A stretch of DNA of 35,831 nt. Source: a virus. Position numbers and translations under genes: made by a program. Below the pieces are notes generated by a model. It was given only the letters and a program-made list of their open reading frames with translations, searched no databases and was not told where the DNA came from. The stretch spans positions 1 through 35,831 of IMG/VR virus record IMGVR_UViG_3300033571_032600, one strand, 5' to 3'. Every line of letters starts with the position of its first letter. Position 1 is the first letter of the stretch. This document shows positions 7,693 through 30,263 of the stretch, piece by piece.

Positions 7693-8229
7693 CTATCGTC
7701 TGTCTCCATATTTGTCAAAATTTTTGCTATGTAACTTATCTTTTCTTTTATTCATAGAATCCAATCCTAGTTTTATTTGTATTAAATCGTTGTATCTCTT
7801 TTTGAGTTCTTGATAATTTCTTGCACTTCTCCATAGTTGTCGGAAATGGTTAAGGATACATGTCGTCATATAATTGAAAGCTTTTCCTTTTGCAGGATCA
7901 AACTTTTCTGCTCTTTCAAAGCATATTAAAACACCTTCTTGCACAGCATCATCCTCGTCTATATGGCTAAATTTGGCATATCTTACGATGTTTGAACTTA
8001 GCGTGTAGAATGCGCTTGCAAGTATTTTTTGTGCTTCTGAATACTCTGCTTCTGCCTGTAGTATTTCTTCAGGGTTAACATTCAAAGGATTTTTAAGGTT
8101 CTTTGCTTGTTGTCTTTGAATCCTTGCATCATTTTGTAAAAGCGCCAGTCTTTGCTTTGCTCTTTGGGCTTTTTGATACTTAATTATAATTATCTCAAAT
8201 GATTTGTTGTTTAGATATTCTGTTGACAT
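7693..8229 (-). CDS. 55: Late transcription sigma factor, T4 gp55-like
   Basis: 178 residues; TAAGGAGAATA precedes ATG 8229. Residues about 77-140 are a sigma-70 region 2: L-S-S-N-I-V-R-Y-A-K-F, then D-E-D-D-A-V-Q-E-G-V-L-I-C-F-E-R, then F-D-P-A-K-G-K-A-F-N-Y-M-T-T-C-I-L-N-H-F-R. The 'D-A-V-Q-E-G ... A-F-N-Y-M' pattern is the core-binding and -10-reading part. As with T4 gp55 (185 residues) there is no region 3 or 4, so it would read only the late TATAAATA box. The N-terminal 60 residues are a basic helix. TATAAATA-like boxes in the window (2478, 6800, 11788, 25777, 25814, 29435, 29439) fit this role. The C-terminal tail is basic. Confidence 0.78.
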   Translation of the reverse strand: MSTEYLNNKSFEIIIIKYQKAQRAKQRLALLQNDARIQRQQAKNLKNPLNVNPEEILQAEAEYSEAQKILASAFYTLSSNIVRYAKFSHIDEDDAVQEGVLICFERAEKFDPAKGKAFNYMTTCILNHFRQLWRSARNYQELKKRYNDLIQIKLGLDSMNKRKDKLHSKNFDKYGDRR

Positions 8230-12621: not shown

Positions 12622-14088
12622 ATGACTATTACAGCTGAACGCATGGATTGGTGGTTCAAACGGAACAGCAATGTTTTGTTGCGTGGCCGTCATGGTGTCG
12701 GCAAAACCGCCATGATTCAAGAATGCTTTGAACGAAATGGCTTGATTCTTAATGAAAGCTATATCTATCTTAGTGCATCTACTCTCGATCCTTGGGTTGA
12801 TCTGATTGGTGTGCCCAAGGAACAATCTGATAGCGAGGGTAATAAGTATTTGGGACTTGTTCGTCCTGAATTGCTTTACAAGGGTAACATTCAAGCTATC
12901 TTTTTTGACGAGTACAACCGTAGTCCGAAGGAAGTTCGGAATGCTGTAATGGAGTTGATTCAAAAGAAGTCTATCAACGGTTTTAAATTCCCCAACCTTC
13001 GTATGGTTTGGGCAGCAGTAAATCCTGTTACAGAGGATAACAGCTATGCCGTTGAAGATGATGACAAGGCACAAATTGACCGTTTTAAAGTGCAAGTAGA
13101 TGTGCCTTACGAATGTGATAGGGGGTACTTTGTTAAAACCTATGGCGAGAACCTTGCTTGTGCTGCTCTTGAATGGTGGAACGGTCTGCCAGAGGCTGAA
13201 AAAGACAAGGTTTCACCTCGTCGGCTGGACTATGCTGTTGAAGAGTTTGTTGCTGGTGGTTTCGTTGAAGATATCCTGCCTGCAAGCTCGAATATCAGCA
13301 AGCTTTTAAAAGCTCTTCGTGTTGGTTCTGTGGAACTCAAACTGAAAGAGTTTTATGAAACCAAAGACAAAAAGGCTATCAAAGCATTTTTTGCATCTGA
13401 GAATAATTGCGATCAGTCTTTGAAATACCTTTTGAACAATGATGATTATCTCAAATTTTTCCTACCGTTCTTGAACAAGGAAAAATTGGTTTCCGTTATC
13501 TCGGTTGAAGATAAGGTGCTTAAGCACATTATTGATAACCGGGAAGATGAGCAAGACTATCAGAATATTCTGCAAAATGTGCTTGCTGGTGGAAACTTGG
13601 ATCTAATCAGAAGGATTAGGGCTGCTATTAAGCCGGTTAAGAGATCTGTGTCTATGCATGAACCATTTAATAAAGGAGGAAACGCATCTCCACCGCAAAT
13701 ACATAGTCCTGTCAAAACACGAAAAGATTTAGAAACAACATTTTTCGATGTTATGAAAAATGCGCATGTAACTGATTTCAGCATTATCGACAAAAAAATA
13801 GATAGTTTTGAAAATGTTGTTAAGAATTTACCATCAGATATCACACTAAATGAAGCTGAATCTGTTTTGAGGTTTATTTCTAAGATATGTACAACTTCAA
13901 CTGTTGCAACTATATCATCAGTAGATTTTTACAATCTTATACCTGTTACTAATTTTGCTGTTGACACTATAGCAAAATATAGTAAAACAGATCCAGCAGA
14001 CATTTTTCGTCTGTCTGAATTTTCGGAACTGGCGAAATTGCTCAAGGGCTGGGGCTTATCGTGTGGAGTAATTGGACTTAATACATAG
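12622..14088 (+). CDS. MoxR-type AAA+ ATPase
   Basis: 488 residues; GGAGG at 12609-12613. Walker A is G-R-H-G-V-G-K-T (22-29), Walker B I-F-F-D-E (93-97), sensor 1 A-A-V-N-P (131-135) and an arginine D-R (153-154). This is the order and spacing of MoxR/CbbQ-type ATPases, which remodel or insert cofactors into partner proteins together with VWA proteins. The AAA+ part occupies about the first 300 residues. From about residue 345 to the end the protein is Ser/Thr/Ile-rich with A/T-ending codons and no known domain; an internal AAAGGAGG lies at 13674-13681. This may be a fused or later-acquired tail. The gene is 9 nt upstream of the VWA partner, forming an operon. Confidence 0.88.
   Translation: MTITAERMDWWFKRNSNVLLRGRHGVGKTAMIQECFERNGLILNESYIYLSASTLDPWVDLIGVPKEQSDSEGNKYLGLVRPELLYKGNIQAIFFDEYNRSPKEVRNAVMELIQKKSINGFKFPNLRMVWAAVNPVTEDNSYAVEDDDKAQIDRFKVQVDVPYECDRGYFVKTYGENLACAALEWWNGLPEAEKDKVSPRRLDYAVEEFVAGGFVEDILPASSNISKLLKALRVGSVELKLKEFYETKDKKAIKAFFASENNCDQSLKYLLNNDDYLKFFLPFLNKEKLVSVISVEDKVLKHIIDNREDEQDYQNILQNVLAGGNLDLIRRIRAAIKPVKRSVSMHEPFNKGGNASPPQIHSPVKTRKDLETTFFDVMKNAHVTDFSIIDKKIDSFENVVKNLPSDITLNEAESVLRFISKICTTSTVATISSVDFYNLIPVTNFAVDTIAKYSKTDPADIFRLSEFSELAKLLKGWGLSCGVIGLNT
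14018..14039 (+). promoter_or_regulatory. Second copy of the hairpin element, 58 nt before the VWA gene
   Basis: AATTTTCG and CGAAATT flank GAACTGG inside the moxR-like coding end. Compared with 12542-12562 about 19 of 22 positions agree, and the distance to the next ATG (58 against 59 nt) is conserved. Further similarity runs through GTAATT, CTTAA and GGAGG up to the ATG. Confidence 0.4.
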
Positions 14089-14097
14089 GAGGGAATC

Positions 14098-15558
14098 ATG
14101 GGCGATCACGATACGCAAGTTATTAGTGAGGCTGAATGGAAGCAGATTTGCTGTGATCTGCAAGACTATCATGCTGTATTTTATAAAATTGCAGAAATTG
14201 GTCGCCCTGCCTTCCGTACAGACATTAATACGGCTTGTGTGACTTTTGATAAAGCTGGAAGTTTTGTAAACTTCTTTTTCAATCCCAAGTTTTGGAATGA
14301 GTGCCAATACTACGAGAAGCTTTTTGTTATCTGCCATGAGGCTTTACATATTCTGTTGAATCATGGTCTGCGTTTCAAGAATCCCGATGAACGGGAAATT
14401 GCCAATGTTGCCATGGACATTGCAGTAAATCATGGCTTGCTCGACCGCTTTGGTTTTGTGCGTGATCAGATTCGCAACAACGAAAGTCTTTGCTGGGTTG
14501 ACACTGTGTTTCCCGGTGAAAAGCAGTCTAATGGGTGGCCTATTCCTGCCGATGAGAGCAGTGAATTTTACTTCCGTATGTTGAAGAAAAAACTTAAGAA
14601 CAAGAAACAGCCACAAAAGCAACCGTGGTCTCCCAGTTCTGGTGGTCAGAAGGATGATAAGAAGGGTGCCGGTCAGAAGGCAGATGACCAGCAAGGCGAT
14701 GATTCAGATGATCAAAATGATGGTGATAAGCAAGAAGGCAAAAAGTCTAAAAAGCCTGCCAAATCACCTACTTATCAAACTCTTGATGATCATGATTCAA
14801 GCTTTCCAACTATGGAAGATATTTCCAAGGAAAGTGGAGACTTTACAGATGTAATTAAAAAGCTCGATAGTGAGTTGAGCGATGATGAGAAGAAAGAAAT
14901 CGAAGGATTCTTGAAGACTCATACACCTGAACAGGTTGCAGGTCATGGCGCAGGAACTCTATGGCATATTGTTCCGGATGAAGTTTTGAATGCCAGAAAG
15001 AATAAAAAGTGGGAGAGCGTGATTACGGATTGGGTTCGCAAAGCTTTGAAAAAATGTGTCAAGCCTTCTTCTCAATGGAGCAGGCAAAATCGTCGGCACA
15101 CCATGCTCCCTAAAACTTTCATGCTGCCAAGCAAAATGGCTGTTGAAAATATGTTCATGGAAAAAGATAAAATTGCTTTGCGATTTTATTTCGATGTTAG
15201 TTATAGCTGCTGTTATTTCTGGAATAGGTTCGTGAAAGCAGCGATGTCGATTGATCCTAAAAAGTTTGATGTCACGCTTGTATCATTCGATACTTCAGTT
15301 ACTGAGATTGCCCAGAAAGACTTGGGTAATATTCAAGCTGGTGGTGGTACTTACTTTCACATTATTGAGGAGGACATACAGAATTACAAAAATACTACCG
15401 GAAAGCCACATCCTGAAGCTGTGTGGGTTCTTACTGATGGTTATGGCACTAAGGTTCATCCAGAAAAACCAGAAAACTGGTACTGGTTTTTGACAGATGG
15501 CTTTAAGGATTATGTGCCAAAAAAATCCAAAGTATTTAATCTGCAAGATTTTGAGTAA
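14098..15558 (+). CDS. DUF2201-type protein: metallopeptidase-like domain plus VWA domain
   Basis: 486 residues; GGAGG at 14088-14092. The N-terminal domain holds H-E-A-L-H (80-84) followed by L-N-H and later a D-I-A-V-N-H (107-112), a zincin-like motif as in putative metallopeptidases of the DUF2201 N-terminal family. Residues about 160-250 are a Lys/Asp/Gln-rich disordered linker. The C-terminal third is a VWA-like domain: D-V-S-Y-S (366-370, MIDAS), L-V-S-F-D-T-S, G-G-G-T-Y (MIDAS Thr) and V-L-T-D-G-Y-G. DUF2201 proteins are encoded next to MoxR ATPases in bacteria, as here. The target is unknown. The end overlaps the convergent nuclease gene by 23 nt. Confidence 0.88.
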   Translation: MGDHDTQVISEAEWKQICCDLQDYHAVFYKIAEIGRPAFRTDINTACVTFDKAGSFVNFFFNPKFWNECQYYEKLFVICHEALHILLNHGLRFKNPDEREIANVAMDIAVNHGLLDRFGFVRDQIRNNESLCWVDTVFPGEKQSNGWPIPADESSEFYFRMLKKKLKNKKQPQKQPWSPSSGGQKDDKKGAGQKADDQQGDDSDDQNDGDKQEGKKSKKPAKSPTYQTLDDHDSSFPTMEDISKESGDFTDVIKKLDSELSDDEKKEIEGFLKTHTPEQVAGHGAGTLWHIVPDEVLNARKNKKWESVITDWVRKALKKCVKPSSQWSRQNRRHTMLPKTFMLPSKMAVENMFMEKDKIALRFYFDVSYSCCYFWNRFVKAAMSIDPKKFDVTLVSFDTSVTEIAQKDLGNIQAGGGTYFHIIEEDIQNYKNTTGKPHPEAVWVLTDGYGTKVHPEKPENWYWFLTDGFKDYVPKKSKVFNLQDFE

Positions 15559-17148: not shown

Positions 17149-17673
17149 TTATTGTAGTGGAGGTGCACCTATTGGAGCAGTAGGTTTAGCTGGTGGATTT
17201 ACGCTAAAGCCAGACATGCCTTCTGGACCTGTTTCTGGGGCCGTAGGAGGCATAATATTGCTTGGTGGTATCTCTGGTTTGTTTGCTGCATCTTGTCTTT
17301 GAACACCAAGATCATTAACAGGAACATTCATATTCTTAAGTATGTTTTGTATTTCTACAACGCTTGAAGCAATAGTATCTTCTAAATTGTCGTTATCAGA
17401 TAATGCTTTAGCTAAAGCCACACCTACTTTTTGCATACCTTTTAAAAATTTTAAATCATCATCTAGCCAATGGCCGCCTAATAGACTCCGGATTTGATTT
17501 ACGATCTTATCTGTAAATCTAACCAGATTCTTAGTACCGATCTTCTTGGCTTCGTCCTGTATTTCTTGTAGAGATGTAAGTATTTCACTTATCTCTTTTC
17601 CAAGAAATGCACGATTCTCCTTAAAAATGAATGATTTAAAATCTAAATCAATATGTGAATATTCATTGATCAT
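17149..17673 (-). CDS. Unknown helical protein with Pro-rich tail
   Basis: 174 residues. The start overlaps the CTP synthase stop (ATGA), so it is translationally coupled. Residues 1-110 are helical (E-I-S-E-I-L-T-S-L-Q-E-I-Q-D, L-K-F-L-K-G-M-Q-K-V-G), while 125-174 are Pro/Gly/Ala-rich and disordered, ending A-P-I-G-A-P-P-L-Q. Similar low-complexity tails occur in the proteins at 941 and 25770. No motif; the position between a synthase and a glutaminase is suggestive of a linker or structural role but proves nothing. Confidence 0.65.
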   Translation of the reverse strand: MINEYSHIDLDFKSFIFKENRAFLGKEISEILTSLQEIQDEAKKIGTKNLVRFTDKIVNQIRSLLGGHWLDDDLKFLKGMQKVGVALAKALSDNDNLEDTIASSVVEIQNILKNMNVPVNDLGVQRQDAANKPEIPPSNIMPPTAPETGPEGMSGFSVNPPAKPTAPIGAPPLQ

Positions 17674-25494: not shown

Positions 25495-25770
25495 TTATTT
25501 TGGTTTGGGCAGTTTGTTCTTTAGATAATCTTCTAGATCTCTCCAAACTTCATATACATCAAGTTTGGTTTTAGGTTGCCCTCCTGCTGGTGCAGCACCG
25601 GGCATTCCACCTAAGTCTGGAGGTGGTCCTCCGGGGGGTGGCCCTCCTCCACCTAAATCTGGTGGTCCTCCGGGGGGTGGTCCTCCTCCACCTAAATCTG
25701 GTGGTCCTCCGGGTGGGGGAGCATCCTCTTCGTTTAATACAATTTGTAAATATTCTCTAAATGTTCTCAT
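25495..25770 (-). CDS. Small Pro/Gly-rich repeat protein with capsid-targeting-like N-terminus
   Basis: 91 residues from ATG 25770 (GTG at 25773 is an in-frame alternative). Residues 1-14 (M-R-T-F-R-E-Y-L-Q-I-V-L-N-E) form an amphipathic helix ending L-N-E, like the T4 capsid-targeting sequence. Residues about 17-55 are tandem units of 13 residues rich in Pro-Pro-Gly-Gly with D-L-G. The C-terminus (K-T-K-L-D-V-Y-E-V-W-R-D-L-E-D-Y-L) is helical. AATAAATA lies 6 nt before the ATG. A packaged internal head protein is inferred; the repeat number may vary between relatives. Confidence 0.65.
   Translation of the reverse strand: MRTFREYLQIVLNEEDAPPPGGPPDLGGGGPPPGGPPDLGGGGPPPGGPPPDLGGMPGAAPAGGQPKTKLDVYEVWRDLEDYLKNKLPKPK
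25601..25725. repeat. 39-bp tandem repeats coding for Pro-Gly units
   Basis: Near-identical units with period 39 bp (about three, the last imperfect) inside the gene ending at 25495. Each unit contains CCTCCGGGG-type runs. It is a coding minisatellite and a likely site of length variation by slippage or recombination. Confidence 0.75.
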
Positions 25771-25776
25771 CACAAG

Positions 25777-25784
25777 TATTTATT
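25777..25784 (-). promoter_or_regulatory. Late-box-like AATAAATA before the 25770 gene
   Basis: On the minus strand AATAAATA ends 6 nt before ATG 25770 (3 nt before GTG 25773). No Shine-Dalgarno is present. One base differs from TATAAATA. Confidence 0.45.
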
Positions 25785-25813
25785 GTAAATTGCTACAAAT
25801 TTCCGAACTGTTC

Positions 25814-25821
25814 AATAAATA
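25814..25821 (+). promoter_or_regulatory. Late-box-like AATAAATA, 4 nt before ATG 25826
   Basis: AATAAATA, then ATAT, then ATG. No Shine-Dalgarno lies upstream. It shares a 55-bp divergent gap with the box at 25777-25784, each serving one strand. Confidence 0.5.
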
Positions 25822-25825
25822 ATAT

Positions 25826-26320
25826 ATGCTTAAATTTGATTCTTGGCGATTAATGAATGAAGACGCAGAAAATCCTGATGCAAATTCTCAGGACGGTTCT
25901 GAGCGGGTTTCAACATCTGCTCCAATTACAGATGTTGAAGACATAGTGTCACAACCAACAGTTGCTGCACCAACTGCTCCTGCAACTGCATCAAACCAGA
26001 CATATAAGCTTAAACCATGGAAAGCTGGTAAAACTGAAATTATGAAGTTTTGGAAGGGCATACAAACCAACTTGCCATTCGCACTAAAGCCAATTGAATA
26101 TGACCACAAGGGCACAACTATTCAGGAAGATGGCATAAGAATAACAGGATCTAAAGAATTTATAACATCTGTTATTTCAAGATTGAAAGATTTTCTTATT
26201 TACGAAAATCCAGAAACTAAATTAATGGTATCATACAGGCAATCACCAAAAAGCTTGAAACCCGGATCAAGAAATAGCTATAGTTTTTATCTTCAAGTAA
26301 AACAAAGAGGCAAGAAGTAA
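25826..26320 (+). CDS. Unknown protein with capsid-targeting-like N-terminus
   Basis: 164 residues. The N-terminus M-L-K-F-D-S-W-R-L-M-N-E resembles the tags at 941 and 25770. Residues 13-60 are a Ser/Thr/Ala/Pro-rich disordered spacer. Residues 60-164 form an alpha/beta domain (K-P-W-K-A-G-K-T-E-I-M-K-F-W, F-I-T-S-V-I-S-R-L-K-D-F-L, Y-S-F-Y-L-Q-V-K). No catalytic pattern. Likely a virion or internal protein. The next gene on the minus strand ends exactly at the following base. Confidence 0.65.
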   Translation: MLKFDSWRLMNEDAENPDANSQDGSERVSTSAPITDVEDIVSQPTVAAPTAPATASNQTYKLKPWKAGKTEIMKFWKGIQTNLPFALKPIEYDHKGTTIQEDGIRITGSKEFITSVISRLKDFLIYENPETKLMVSYRQSPKSLKPGSRNSYSFYLQVKQRGKK

Positions 26321-27718: not shown

Positions 27719-29134
27719 ATGGCAACTAATATAATTGTAAATAATGATATAAGCGTTTTGTCTTCGGACAATACTGAACTTCTAAAGTTTTTGTATGACA
27801 ACCTTAGGTTCAGGGATAGAAACTATTTCCACAATGCTCGTTTCCGACAAAGATTATGGGATGGTTTTACAAATTTTTTTAATCAGAACAATGGTAAATT
27901 TCTTACAGGTTTGTTACCAGAAGTATATGCTGCCTGTAAACACTTTGGCATAAAGCCAGATTTTGTAGATCGTCGTACAAAATGTGAATTTTTAACAAAT
28001 GAAATAAAACCCGATTTCATGAATCAGTGGTTACCCCAAGGAATGTCTCCAATAACTCTTGAAGACTATCAGTGTGAACTTGCTAATCAGGCTATAAAAA
28101 ATAAAAGAGGAATTATATTTGCTCCTACATCAGCTGGAAAAAGCTTAATAATGCTTTCAATATTAAAATCACTACCTCCTACTACTAAAACTTTAATATT
28201 ACAAAACAGGAAAACTCTTGCTGCCCAGAATTATGAAGAGTATGTAAAATGGGGCTTGCAAAATGTTGGAAGAATATGGCAGGGATACAATGAACCAAAT
28301 ACATTCACTGTAGCTACAGTGCAATCTGTTGAAAAGGCTATAGACATATTGCCTAAAATAGAAGTTTTATTAGTTGATGAAATACATGATATGATGTCAA
28401 CAGCACCAAAAAAGGTTTACAGGTTATTGAAAAATTGCAGCGTCAGAATAGCAGTTAGCGCAACTCCATTCAAACATGGAGAAACAGATAAAATACAAAA
28501 ATATTATGTCAAAGGTTTTTTCGGTCCATTGTTCAAAATCCAATCAACTCAAACAGGTTTGATAACCACTAAAGAATTACAAGAGAGAGGAAGGCTGTCT
28601 AAAAGCAAATGTACTTTTTATAAAGTTAAAAATCCCAGTCTCGATTACGAGATTTATATTGATGCAGTTACTAAAGGATTAGTTGAAAATGAAGAATTTC
28701 ATCAAATGGTATTGTCAAAAACACTAGATCTTAAAGGCAGAACACTAATTCTTGTTGAAAGACTTGCTCACGGAGATGCTTTGCAGAAACTAATGCCTAA
28801 TGCCCTATGGGTACAAGGAAAAGATAATAATGAAACAAGACAGCAGGTTATAGAAAAATTACAAAAAGCTAAGAACTGTGTAGCCATAGCAACTCAAGGT
28901 ATCTTTAATACTGGTATCAATGTTTTTGTTCATAATTTGATCAATGCTGCCGGTGGTCAGGCAGATCATCTTATTATACAAAGAATGGGCAGAGGACTAA
29001 GAACTGCCAAGGATAAAGATGGTTTAAATTATATTGACTTTATATTTGAAAATAATCCATATCTTCATAAACATAGCATGAAAAGAATTAAAATTTTAAA
29101 ACAACAAGGACATCAAGTTGATGTTGTTGATTAA
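27719..29134 (+). CDS. uvsW: UvsW-like SF2 helicase
   Basis: 471 residues from ATG 27719, which has GAGGAC 4 nt upstream; a longer frame from 27635 lies within dda and is unlikely. The N-terminal domain (about 1-110) is the UvsW DNA-binding part. Then A-P-T-S-A-G-K-S (135-142), D-E-I-H-D, A-V-S-A-T-P-F and R-M-G-R-G-L-R. T4 UvsW (503) has the same layout. It unwinds R-loops and branched DNA and moves T4 from origin-driven to recombination-driven replication. It pairs with the gp46/47 and UvsY-like genes here. Confidence 0.92.
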   Translation: MATNIIVNNDISVLSSDNTELLKFLYDNLRFRDRNYFHNARFRQRLWDGFTNFFNQNNGKFLTGLLPEVYAACKHFGIKPDFVDRRTKCEFLTNEIKPDFMNQWLPQGMSPITLEDYQCELANQAIKNKRGIIFAPTSAGKSLIMLSILKSLPPTTKTLILQNRKTLAAQNYEEYVKWGLQNVGRIWQGYNEPNTFTVATVQSVEKAIDILPKIEVLLVDEIHDMMSTAPKKVYRLLKNCSVRIAVSATPFKHGETDKIQKYYVKGFFGPLFKIQSTQTGLITTKELQERGRLSKSKCTFYKVKNPSLDYEIYIDAVTKGLVENEEFHQMVLSKTLDLKGRTLILVERLAHGDALQKLMPNALWVQGKDNNETRQQVIEKLQKAKNCVAIATQGIFNTGINVFVHNLINAAGGQADHLIIQRMGRGLRTAKDKDGLNYIDFIFENNPYLHKHSMKRIKILKQQGHQVDVVD

Positions 29135-29430
29135 TTTTTATGGTCACTAACTATAAGATTTATGATGTCAGCAAGTGTTCCATTCTTAGTTTTAAGTAAG
29201 GTTAAGATTTCATCTTGAGATATTGGAGAAAGTTCTTCGAACATTTTCCAGTTAATTATATTATCATACAGTAATTTTATATCATAATCAGATAATCTTT
29301 TAGTATTAATTTCTTTATTATTTTTTATTTTAATTGGATGAATTTGATGCTTGATAGCATCTCTAACATTATTAAATGTTTTTCTTTCTGAATTTTCAAT
29401 CCAAAGTTTGAAATTAATAAATTTGTGCAT
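29131..29430 (-). CDS. Unknown small protein with capsid-targeting-like N-terminus
   Basis: 99 residues. M-H-K-F-I-N-F-K-L-W-I-E starts it, an amphipathic helix ending W-I-E. The remainder is helical (R-L-S-D-Y-D-I-K-L-L-Y-D-N-I-I-N-W, I-L-T-L-L-K-T-K-N-G-T-L-A-D-I-I). A perfect TATAAATA lies 4 nt before the ATG and there is no Shine-Dalgarno. The stop is interlocked with the uvsW stop (TTAA). Likely a late virion or internal protein. Confidence 0.62.
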   Translation of the reverse strand: MHKFINFKLWIENSERKTFNNVRDAIKHQIHPIKIKNNKEINTKRLSDYDIKLLYDNIINWKMFEELSPISQDEILTLLKTKNGTLADIINLIVSDHKN

Positions 29431-29434
29431 AGTT

Positions 29435-29446
29435 TATTTATACATA
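29435..29446. promoter_or_regulatory. Overlapping divergent late boxes
   Basis: The 20-bp gap between two divergent ATGs (29430 minus, 29451 plus) holds TATAAATA on the minus strand (29442-29435) and TATACATA on the plus strand (29439-29446), sharing 4 bp. Each ends exactly 4 nt before its ATG. Neither gene has a Shine-Dalgarno. Confidence 0.6.
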
Positions 29447-29450
29447 TATT

Positions 29451-30263
29451 ATGCATAAATTTAACTTAACAGAATGGCTTGGTGTACCCGCCGAAAGATT
29501 ATTTGGTTTTTCCAATGATGTAAAGGCTAGTAGTCCTGTAAAATACAGTGAAGAACCTTTAGAACCATTGGGGCCATCCATGATTCTAGATGAGTTAACA
29601 TGGCTTGGGTCAATTAATAATAAAAAACCCAATCGTTTATTTGAAAACATGGTCGATTATGGGCATGATGCAGATAAAATGCAGGTAGTTATATCACCAT
29701 TGGGATCACTTAAGATAATTATAAGAAAAATTGGTATAGCTCTTGAAGGATCACATATTCCTATTTGTTACACAATTTACCCTTTGATTAACGATTATAA
29801 TCACAATGGTGAATCGGACGACAAGATTGAAAATATAATTGCCAATAAAATTGCTGATAAATTAACTGAAATTGATAATAGACAATTACTTACTGGTGTT
29901 AAGGATTACGATAAACTAAAAGAATTGACTTTGGAGTTAGCAAGAAATGTTAGGGCTAATCATCCAAAATGTATGCACTTTGAGGGTGTAGTATCGCCTA
30001 ATGAGAATCAATATACAATTTATTTGCAGTATAATGGGCAGGGAGTAGAGGCACCAAGTGCTAGGAGAGCAGAACAATTTGATATACATATGCAATATCA
30101 AAAAGATACAGGTTTAATTCGATGCTGGGCAAACGAAATTACAAGTCCTACAAGACAACACTTGTGGCAAGTTCAGCCAAGTGAATGGGATGAGTATTTT
30201 TCCCCTAAACAAAAAAATTCTGAAATTATTGAATGTATTATGAATGCTTTGTATACCTACTAA
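29451..30263 (+). CDS. Unknown protein, likely virion component
   Basis: 270 residues. It starts M-H-K-F-N-L-T-E-W-L, similar to its divergent partner (M-H-K-F). Residues 30-70 are Pro/Ser-rich; 80-130 are beta-rich (M-Q-V-V-I-S-P-L-G-S-L-K-I-I-I-R); then a helical part and a Trp-containing C-terminus (R-C-W-A-N-E-I). No known enzyme motif. TATACATA sits 4 nt before the ATG. The stop overlaps the convergent gene (CTAA). Confidence 0.65.
   Translation: MHKFNLTEWLGVPAERLFGFSNDVKASSPVKYSEEPLEPLGPSMILDELTWLGSINNKKPNRLFENMVDYGHDADKMQVVISPLGSLKIIIRKIGIALEGSHIPICYTIYPLINDYNHNGESDDKIENIIANKIADKLTEIDNRQLLTGVKDYDKLKELTLELARNVRANHPKCMHFEGVVSPNENQYTIYLQYNGQGVEAPSARRAEQFDIHMQYQKDTGLIRCWANEITSPTRQHLWQVQPSEWDEYFSPKQKNSEIIECIMNALYTY

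Follow-up and report, generated by a model that had tools for sequence, protein, structure and literature searches.

The 20-bp gap between two divergent genes at positions 29431-29450 is likely a minimal T4-type late promoter that fires in both directions and yields leaderless mRNAs. Leaderlessness is inferred, as none of these phages has a mapped RNA 5' end. The layout appears to be a recurrent architecture rather than a one-off, and it is a variant of a known promoter type. The window, meaning the whole stretch of 35,831 nucleotides that was analyzed, is an IMG/VR fragment (35.8 kb) from a T4-related phage with a contractile tail; it has matches to the sheath, tube, sheath stabiliser, and baseplate hub, and to a UvsW-type helicase, a DnaB-type helicase, ribonucleotide reductase, and a family A DNA polymerase. 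Contig G005 (44.6 kb) comes from the same virus. The closest record in the annotated collection is the uncultured 595-kb phage LR756511, whose sigma factor is 56% identical to that of the window and whose copy of the 270-aa protein described below is 31% identical. Elsewhere in the window, a D12-class N6-adenine DNA methyltransferase lies amid tail genes (1585-2493), and adjoining genes encode an AAA_3-like ATPase (below the cut-off) and a DUF2201 metallopeptidase-like protein (12622-15558).

Two overlapping boxes in a 20-bp gap

The gap reads AGTTTATTTATACATATATT and has one box for each strand.

29431..29450, no strand: intergenic gap of 20 bp, proposed bidirectional promoter
29435..29442, minus strand: late box TATAAATA, 4 nt from the ATG of the 99-aa gene
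29439..29446, plus strand: late box variant TATACATA, 4 nt from the ATG of the 270-aa gene
29131..29430, minus strand: 99-aa protein with N-terminus MHKFINFKLWIENSE, a capsid-targeting-like tag and a body without known function
29451..30263, plus strand: 270-aa protein with N-terminus MHKFNLTEWLG, a capsid-targeting-like tag and a conserved body without known function

The minus-strand box is followed by AACT and the ATG at 29430, and the plus-strand box by TATT and the ATG at 29451. The boxes have 4 bp in common (29439-29442), and the A bases of the two ATGs are 21 bp apart. The minus box is an exact match to the T4-type late consensus TATAAATA, and the plus box differs from it by one base. 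The box is close to palindromic and occurs on both strands. A Shine-Dalgarno (SD) sequence is absent before both genes. Either 8-mer on its own is unremarkable in the AT-rich window: TATAAATA was observed twice against 3.2 expected, and TATACATA five times against 1.3 expected.

The positions of the two start codons are established. In-frame stops lie directly upstream of both ATGs, a TAA at 29436-29434 for the minus gene and a TAG at 29430-29432 for the plus gene, which excludes any start further upstream at an ATG, GTG, or TTG. Downstream, the first Met after the start is residue 63 of the 99-aa protein and residue 44 of the 270-aa protein, and a downstream start would therefore lose the conserved N-terminus. 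Alternative starts were ruled out on the in-frame stops and the tag conservation. Convergent neighbors overlap the ends of both genes, an arrangement that fits two single-gene units. The two MHKF codon runs form an inverted repeat (AAATTTGTGCAT/ATGCATAAATTT) that was considered as an invertible switch or hairpin. It is absent in the next relative, L004, and because it is not kept there we take it to be a by-product of similar tags.

The initial annotation had described overlapping divergent boxes in a 20-bp gap, sharing 4 bp and each 4 nt from an ATG, and this held exactly. It had also stated that both proteins begin with MHKF, which is correct for the window; MHKF itself is not conserved, whereas the F-x-x-W and F-K-E-W-L patterns are. 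Protein starts at a downstream Met, which it had named as an outcome that would refute its reading, are made very unlikely by the stops and the conserved tag.

The tagged proteins

In an alignment of eight relatives, F7 and W10 are invariant in the tag of the 99-aa protein, and E8 and W9 in that of the 270-aa protein. The conserved tag types are F-x-x-W and F-K-E-W-L, respectively. Neither protein has a PHROG or Pfam match, and searches of PHROGs, Pfam, and PDB sequences gave nothing credible on their function. In T4, a capsid targeting sequence directs the internal proteins into the head (PMC3012670). The tags of T4 IPI, IPII, and IPIII follow [FY]-x-x-[FWY] plus an acidic residue (MKTFKEF, MKTYQEFIAEA), and the window tags FKLWIEN and FREYLQ are alike; the others in the window are F-N-L-T-E-W-L and FDSWRLMNE. 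The bodies of the tagged window proteins are unrelated to the T4 internal proteins, and the nearby T4 late boxes are leadered. Both tagged proteins of the pair are probably packed into the head, an inference for which packaging and prohead protease cleavage are untested.

A second divergent tagged pair is found in the window.

25495..25770, minus strand: 91-aa protein, tag MRTFREYLQIVLNEE followed by Pro/Gly repeats
25777..25783, minus strand: ATAAATA box, 6 nt from the ATG at 25770
25815..25821, plus strand: ATAAATA box, 4 nt from the ATG at 25826
25826..26320, plus strand: 164-aa protein, tag MLKFDSWRLMNED

Its products start with MRTFREYLQ and MLKFDSWR across a 55-bp gap (25770-25826), and the corresponding gaps in relatives are 33, 34, and 55 bp. 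At 17149-17673 on the minus strand, the protein MINEYSHIDLDFKSFIFKEN has a tag-like start, with the variant box ATAGATA 4 nt from its ATG; the matching site in relative G003 has ATAAATA instead.

The association of tags with close-set boxes was scored with an F-x-x-W regular expression, a rough test that misses some cases and overcalls others. Within the clade, 15/39 close-box starts matched compared to 55/536 open reading frames (ORFs); the figures for LR756511 were 11/20 and 49/401. Every short-gap double-box pair recorded for the clade and LR756511 is flanked on either side by a tag-like start.

Position of the box relative to the start codon

In eight relative contigs, distances were taken from every ATAAATA to the ATG of an ORF with 60 aa or more. 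The motif was found 4, 5, and 6 nt before the ATG in 10, 7, and 7 cases, a total of 24 compared to 2.4 expected from the rate of 20 permuted motifs (P about 2e-16). The 20 permutations of the same letters gave 0-8 cases each at this distance. The 24 cases include orthologues and are not 24 independent events. A second ATAAATA group lies 14-30 nt before the ATG. SD-like sites accompany one of the 24 close boxes compared to 17/31 boxes of the distant group (P = 9e-5) and 189/411 ORFs generally (P = 2e-5). These data show that the position of the box relative to the ATG is far beyond chance across the relatives.

Middle-position variants also peak 4-6 nt before the ATG (ATATATA, 10/116; ATACATA, 5/100). 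This enrichment supports the plus-strand box TATACATA, with the proviso that two of the five close ATACATA cases are the 29431-29450 gap itself and its orthologue. Position -13 of the box is not conserved in the 24 clade sequences (A7 G7 T5 C5), and the clade consensus is NATA[A/T/C]ATA, not strictly TATAAATA. When these sequences were aligned on the box, there was no information content near -35. In G001, ATAAATA lies 5-6 nt before the ATGs of very long minus-strand ORFs at 58410, 64701, and 77722 (1534, 1947, and 3061 aa), whose starts are variants of YPQITF.

Conservation of the divergent pair

The orthologues of both proteins are divergent neighbors in all eight aligned relatives. The pair proteins of the nearest distinct relative, G003/L004, are 74% and 52% identical to those of the window. 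The 12-bp double-box core TATTTATACATA (29435-29446) is identical there at 12/12 positions, whereas the gap flanks match at only 3/8 bases and differ at 5/8 (P = 0.004 for core versus flanks). Equivalent gaps between tagged genes in relatives measure 13, 16, 17, 18, and 20 bp; the 13-bp gap, GATAAATATATTT, occurs in L009 and L013. The orthologous gaps of L007, L008, and L010 keep a box, but with leaders of roughly 26-28 nt; the pair does not strictly require leaderless starts.

A wider search for the 270-aa protein identified 34 loci, down to 29% identity; the locus table retains a few near-duplicate loci. The box lies 4-6 nt from the ATG of the 270-aa protein in 12/26 loci examined and 4-6 nt from the ATG of the tagged partner in 9/21, compared to a background of 34/1174 ORFs in the same loci. 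The gap of L134 has an 18-bp perfect palindrome, AGTAATATATATATTACT, between the two ATGs. L122 and L135 are 57% GC, and their only TATATA in 6.8 kb is inside the 16-bp gap. Across five GC-richer contigs, TATATA-N4-7-ATG occurs 39 times and the reversed pattern three times. No relatives were found in bacterial genome contigs. Single boxes between two tagged genes were also seen. G010 has a second shared box in a 60%-GC stretch (L138), where one TATATA separates the tagged genes MRFREWLLLQES and MKTFLEWLVESD at spacings of 4 and 5 nt to the respective start codons. At L030-L031 (G003 64330-64347), a 16-bp gap has one ATATATA box for two tagged genes.

These comparisons bear on two alternatives. 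The first is that AT-rich words overlap here by coincidence, the genome being 65% AT. Each 8-mer is indeed near its expected number in the window, but the position statistics, the conservation of the core with changed flanks, and the recurrence in distant and GC-rich relatives all but exclude chance, and it was rejected on these comparative data. The second is that the AT-rich stretch acts as a translation enhancer or unstructured start region on longer read-in transcripts rather than as a promoter. AT-rich upstream stretches are common in genes that lack an SD. Against this idea, the genes diverge, so a read-in transcript must start inside the opposite gene; only ATAAATA-like words peak before the ATG, and the 20 permutations of equal composition do not; and the TATATA core survives in the 57%-GC relatives. 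We consider it very unlikely.

A candidate late sigma factor

The promoter reading calls for a protein that recognizes the box, and the window encodes a candidate.

7693..8229, minus strand: 178-aa sigma factor of the late-transcription (gp55-like) type, candidate box reader

This protein matches Pfam Sigma70_r2 above the cut-off, and phrog_351 and phrog_234 (late sigma) at 1e-7. Direct hhalign comparison to T4 gp55 is weak but in the right region, and because of this weakness the gp55-type assignment rests on the PHROG and Pfam profiles. The phrog_234 family is found exactly once in each of the seven relatives tested. The presence of a late-sigma-like gene is established; that it reads the boxes is inferred. 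The T4-family gp45 sliding clamp (phrog_223) had no match in seven relative fragments or the whole LR756511 record, although a divergent clamp could escape this search. The T4 route of clamp activation is thus not established.

The main rival is that the boxes are not a phage late promoter but an ordinary symmetrical -10 promoter, bidirectional as in Escherichia coli and used by the host housekeeping (sigma70-type) polymerase. In bacteria, symmetrical -10 elements commonly fire in both directions from starts 7-25 bp apart (PMC10268837), the A bases of the two ATGs are separated by 21 bp, and TATAAA and TATACA look like -10 elements. Three observations speak against this explanation. The close-box set has no -35 signal; the motif is the T4/cyanophage late box NATAAATA and is located before structural and tagged genes; and a late-sigma-like gene is present in the window and all seven relatives tested. 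A housekeeping promoter is therefore unlikely.

Comparison with known promoters

T4 late promoters resemble the gap in their 8-bp AT box with no accompanying -35 element, in the late-sigma-like protein, and in the use of both strands. They differ in spacing. In the T4 control (150 kb), ATAAATA comes no closer to an ATG than 12 nt, with a mode of 28 nt, and the leaders have an SD, whereas the close-set boxes of the window clade lie at 4-6 nt and almost always without an SD. The clade also differs from T4 in its free position -13, its tolerance of C or T in the middle of the box, and the lack of a detected T4-family clamp. Divergent late boxes exist in T4 at genes 4/53 and inh/segE (L051 27337-27385 and L052 12007-12057), both with SD leaders. 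The T4 late box spans -13 to -6 (PMC2988020), which for a 5-nt spacer places +1 on the A of the ATG. The 4-nt spacers of the window need a one-base shift because this numbering puts +1 on the T. This shift and the one-base variant in the plus box are among the points against the late-promoter reading.

The degenerate box of cyanophage late promoters (NATAAATA; Syn9, S-PM2) is the same as in the gap. Syn9 has no ATAAATA 3-9 nt from an ATG, and its late boxes are leadered, unlike those of the gap. Pelagiphage HTVC008M (L067-L074) has close-set boxes like the clade, with 9/45 ATAAATA at a spacing of exactly 5 nt to an ATG and not one at 3, 4, or 6 nt, but without the tag association. The 5-nt-spaced ATGs of HTVC008M are usually followed by G. 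Its 5-nt peak is indirect support for a start about 13 bp from the first base of the box, an inference made without 5'-end mapping. The 335 kb of LR756511 examined have 14 ATAAATA at 4-6 nt, many before tagged proteins. This phage resembles the window in that feature and in keeping the divergent pair, but its copy of the pair has an SD leader on one side.

Symmetrical promoters of bacteria have overlapping -10 sequences and opposite starts 7-25 bp apart (PMC10268837, citing Warman et al. 2021). The gap is similar in that one near-palindromic region would serve two opposite starts; its boxes overlap and its predicted starts are about 21 bp apart, with two-way firing unmeasured. The bacterial promoters depend on the housekeeping sigma, and one of their two transcripts is often an antisense or non-coding RNA, whereas both sides of the gap encode tagged proteins and both mRNAs are predicted to be leaderless. 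Leaderless phage transcripts are mentioned in the literature (PMC5312081). The open-access literature searched had no report of leaderless T4-type late promoters, or of one common to two tagged genes; subscription papers were outside the search.

Discussion

We propose that the gp55-like late sigma (7693-8229) would bring host RNA polymerase to the AT box without a -35 element. The polymerase would bind either way round, one way at a time; two-way binding would be possible because the near-palindromic box is found in both orientations. Transcription is predicted to start about 5-6 nt beyond the box, either on the A of the ATG or no more than one base away, and both mRNAs would be leaderless and lack an SD. 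Translation may then follow the leaderless route, with a 70S ribosome on the 5'-terminal AUG. In each direction the promoter would drive one gene only, whose product has a capsid-targeting-like N-terminus. The box positions and their conservation, and the lack of an SD and a -35 signal, are shown; reading of the boxes by the sigma, the 5' ends themselves, the route of translation, and packaging into the capsid are only inferred.

Most of the initial annotation's reading of the gap is upheld. Its assignment of the boxes to the T4 late type is supported by the late-sigma-like gene in the window and the missing -35 signal, but the T at -13 that it gave the box failed for the local consensus, where this position is free. 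A start within about a base of the ATG is supported by the position statistics and the missing SD, with the 5' ends inferred. Its claim of a minimal bidirectional promoter gains support from distant relatives, which keep the divergent gap, and the arrangement proved to recur rather than being confined to this gap.

In the textbook case of T4, late mRNAs have SD-bearing leaders. The T4-related group studied here appears to have merged the promoter with the start codon, in places with one palindromic box per two genes. A bolder reading, which we hold as less likely than not, is that a broad group of T4-related and huge phages uses a portable leaderless cassette of about 15-50 bp for expression and packaging, consisting of a late box, 4-6 nt, the ATG, and a capsid-targeting tag. 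If so, two cargo genes placed back to back would rely on a single palindromic box, and a gene body that recombined into place after an existing promoter, start, and tag could become new cargo. Late mRNAs without leaders would then form a systematic class in these phages, perhaps favored by a late alteration of the ribosome. A pelagimyophage study did not find late promoters by the usual method (PMC7029224), and close-set boxes may explain this failure. The arrangement predicts leaderless late mRNAs for specific classes of protein, and it offers NATA[ATC]ATA plus 4-6 nt plus ATG as a simple rule by which starts and capsid cargo might be called in uncultured phages.
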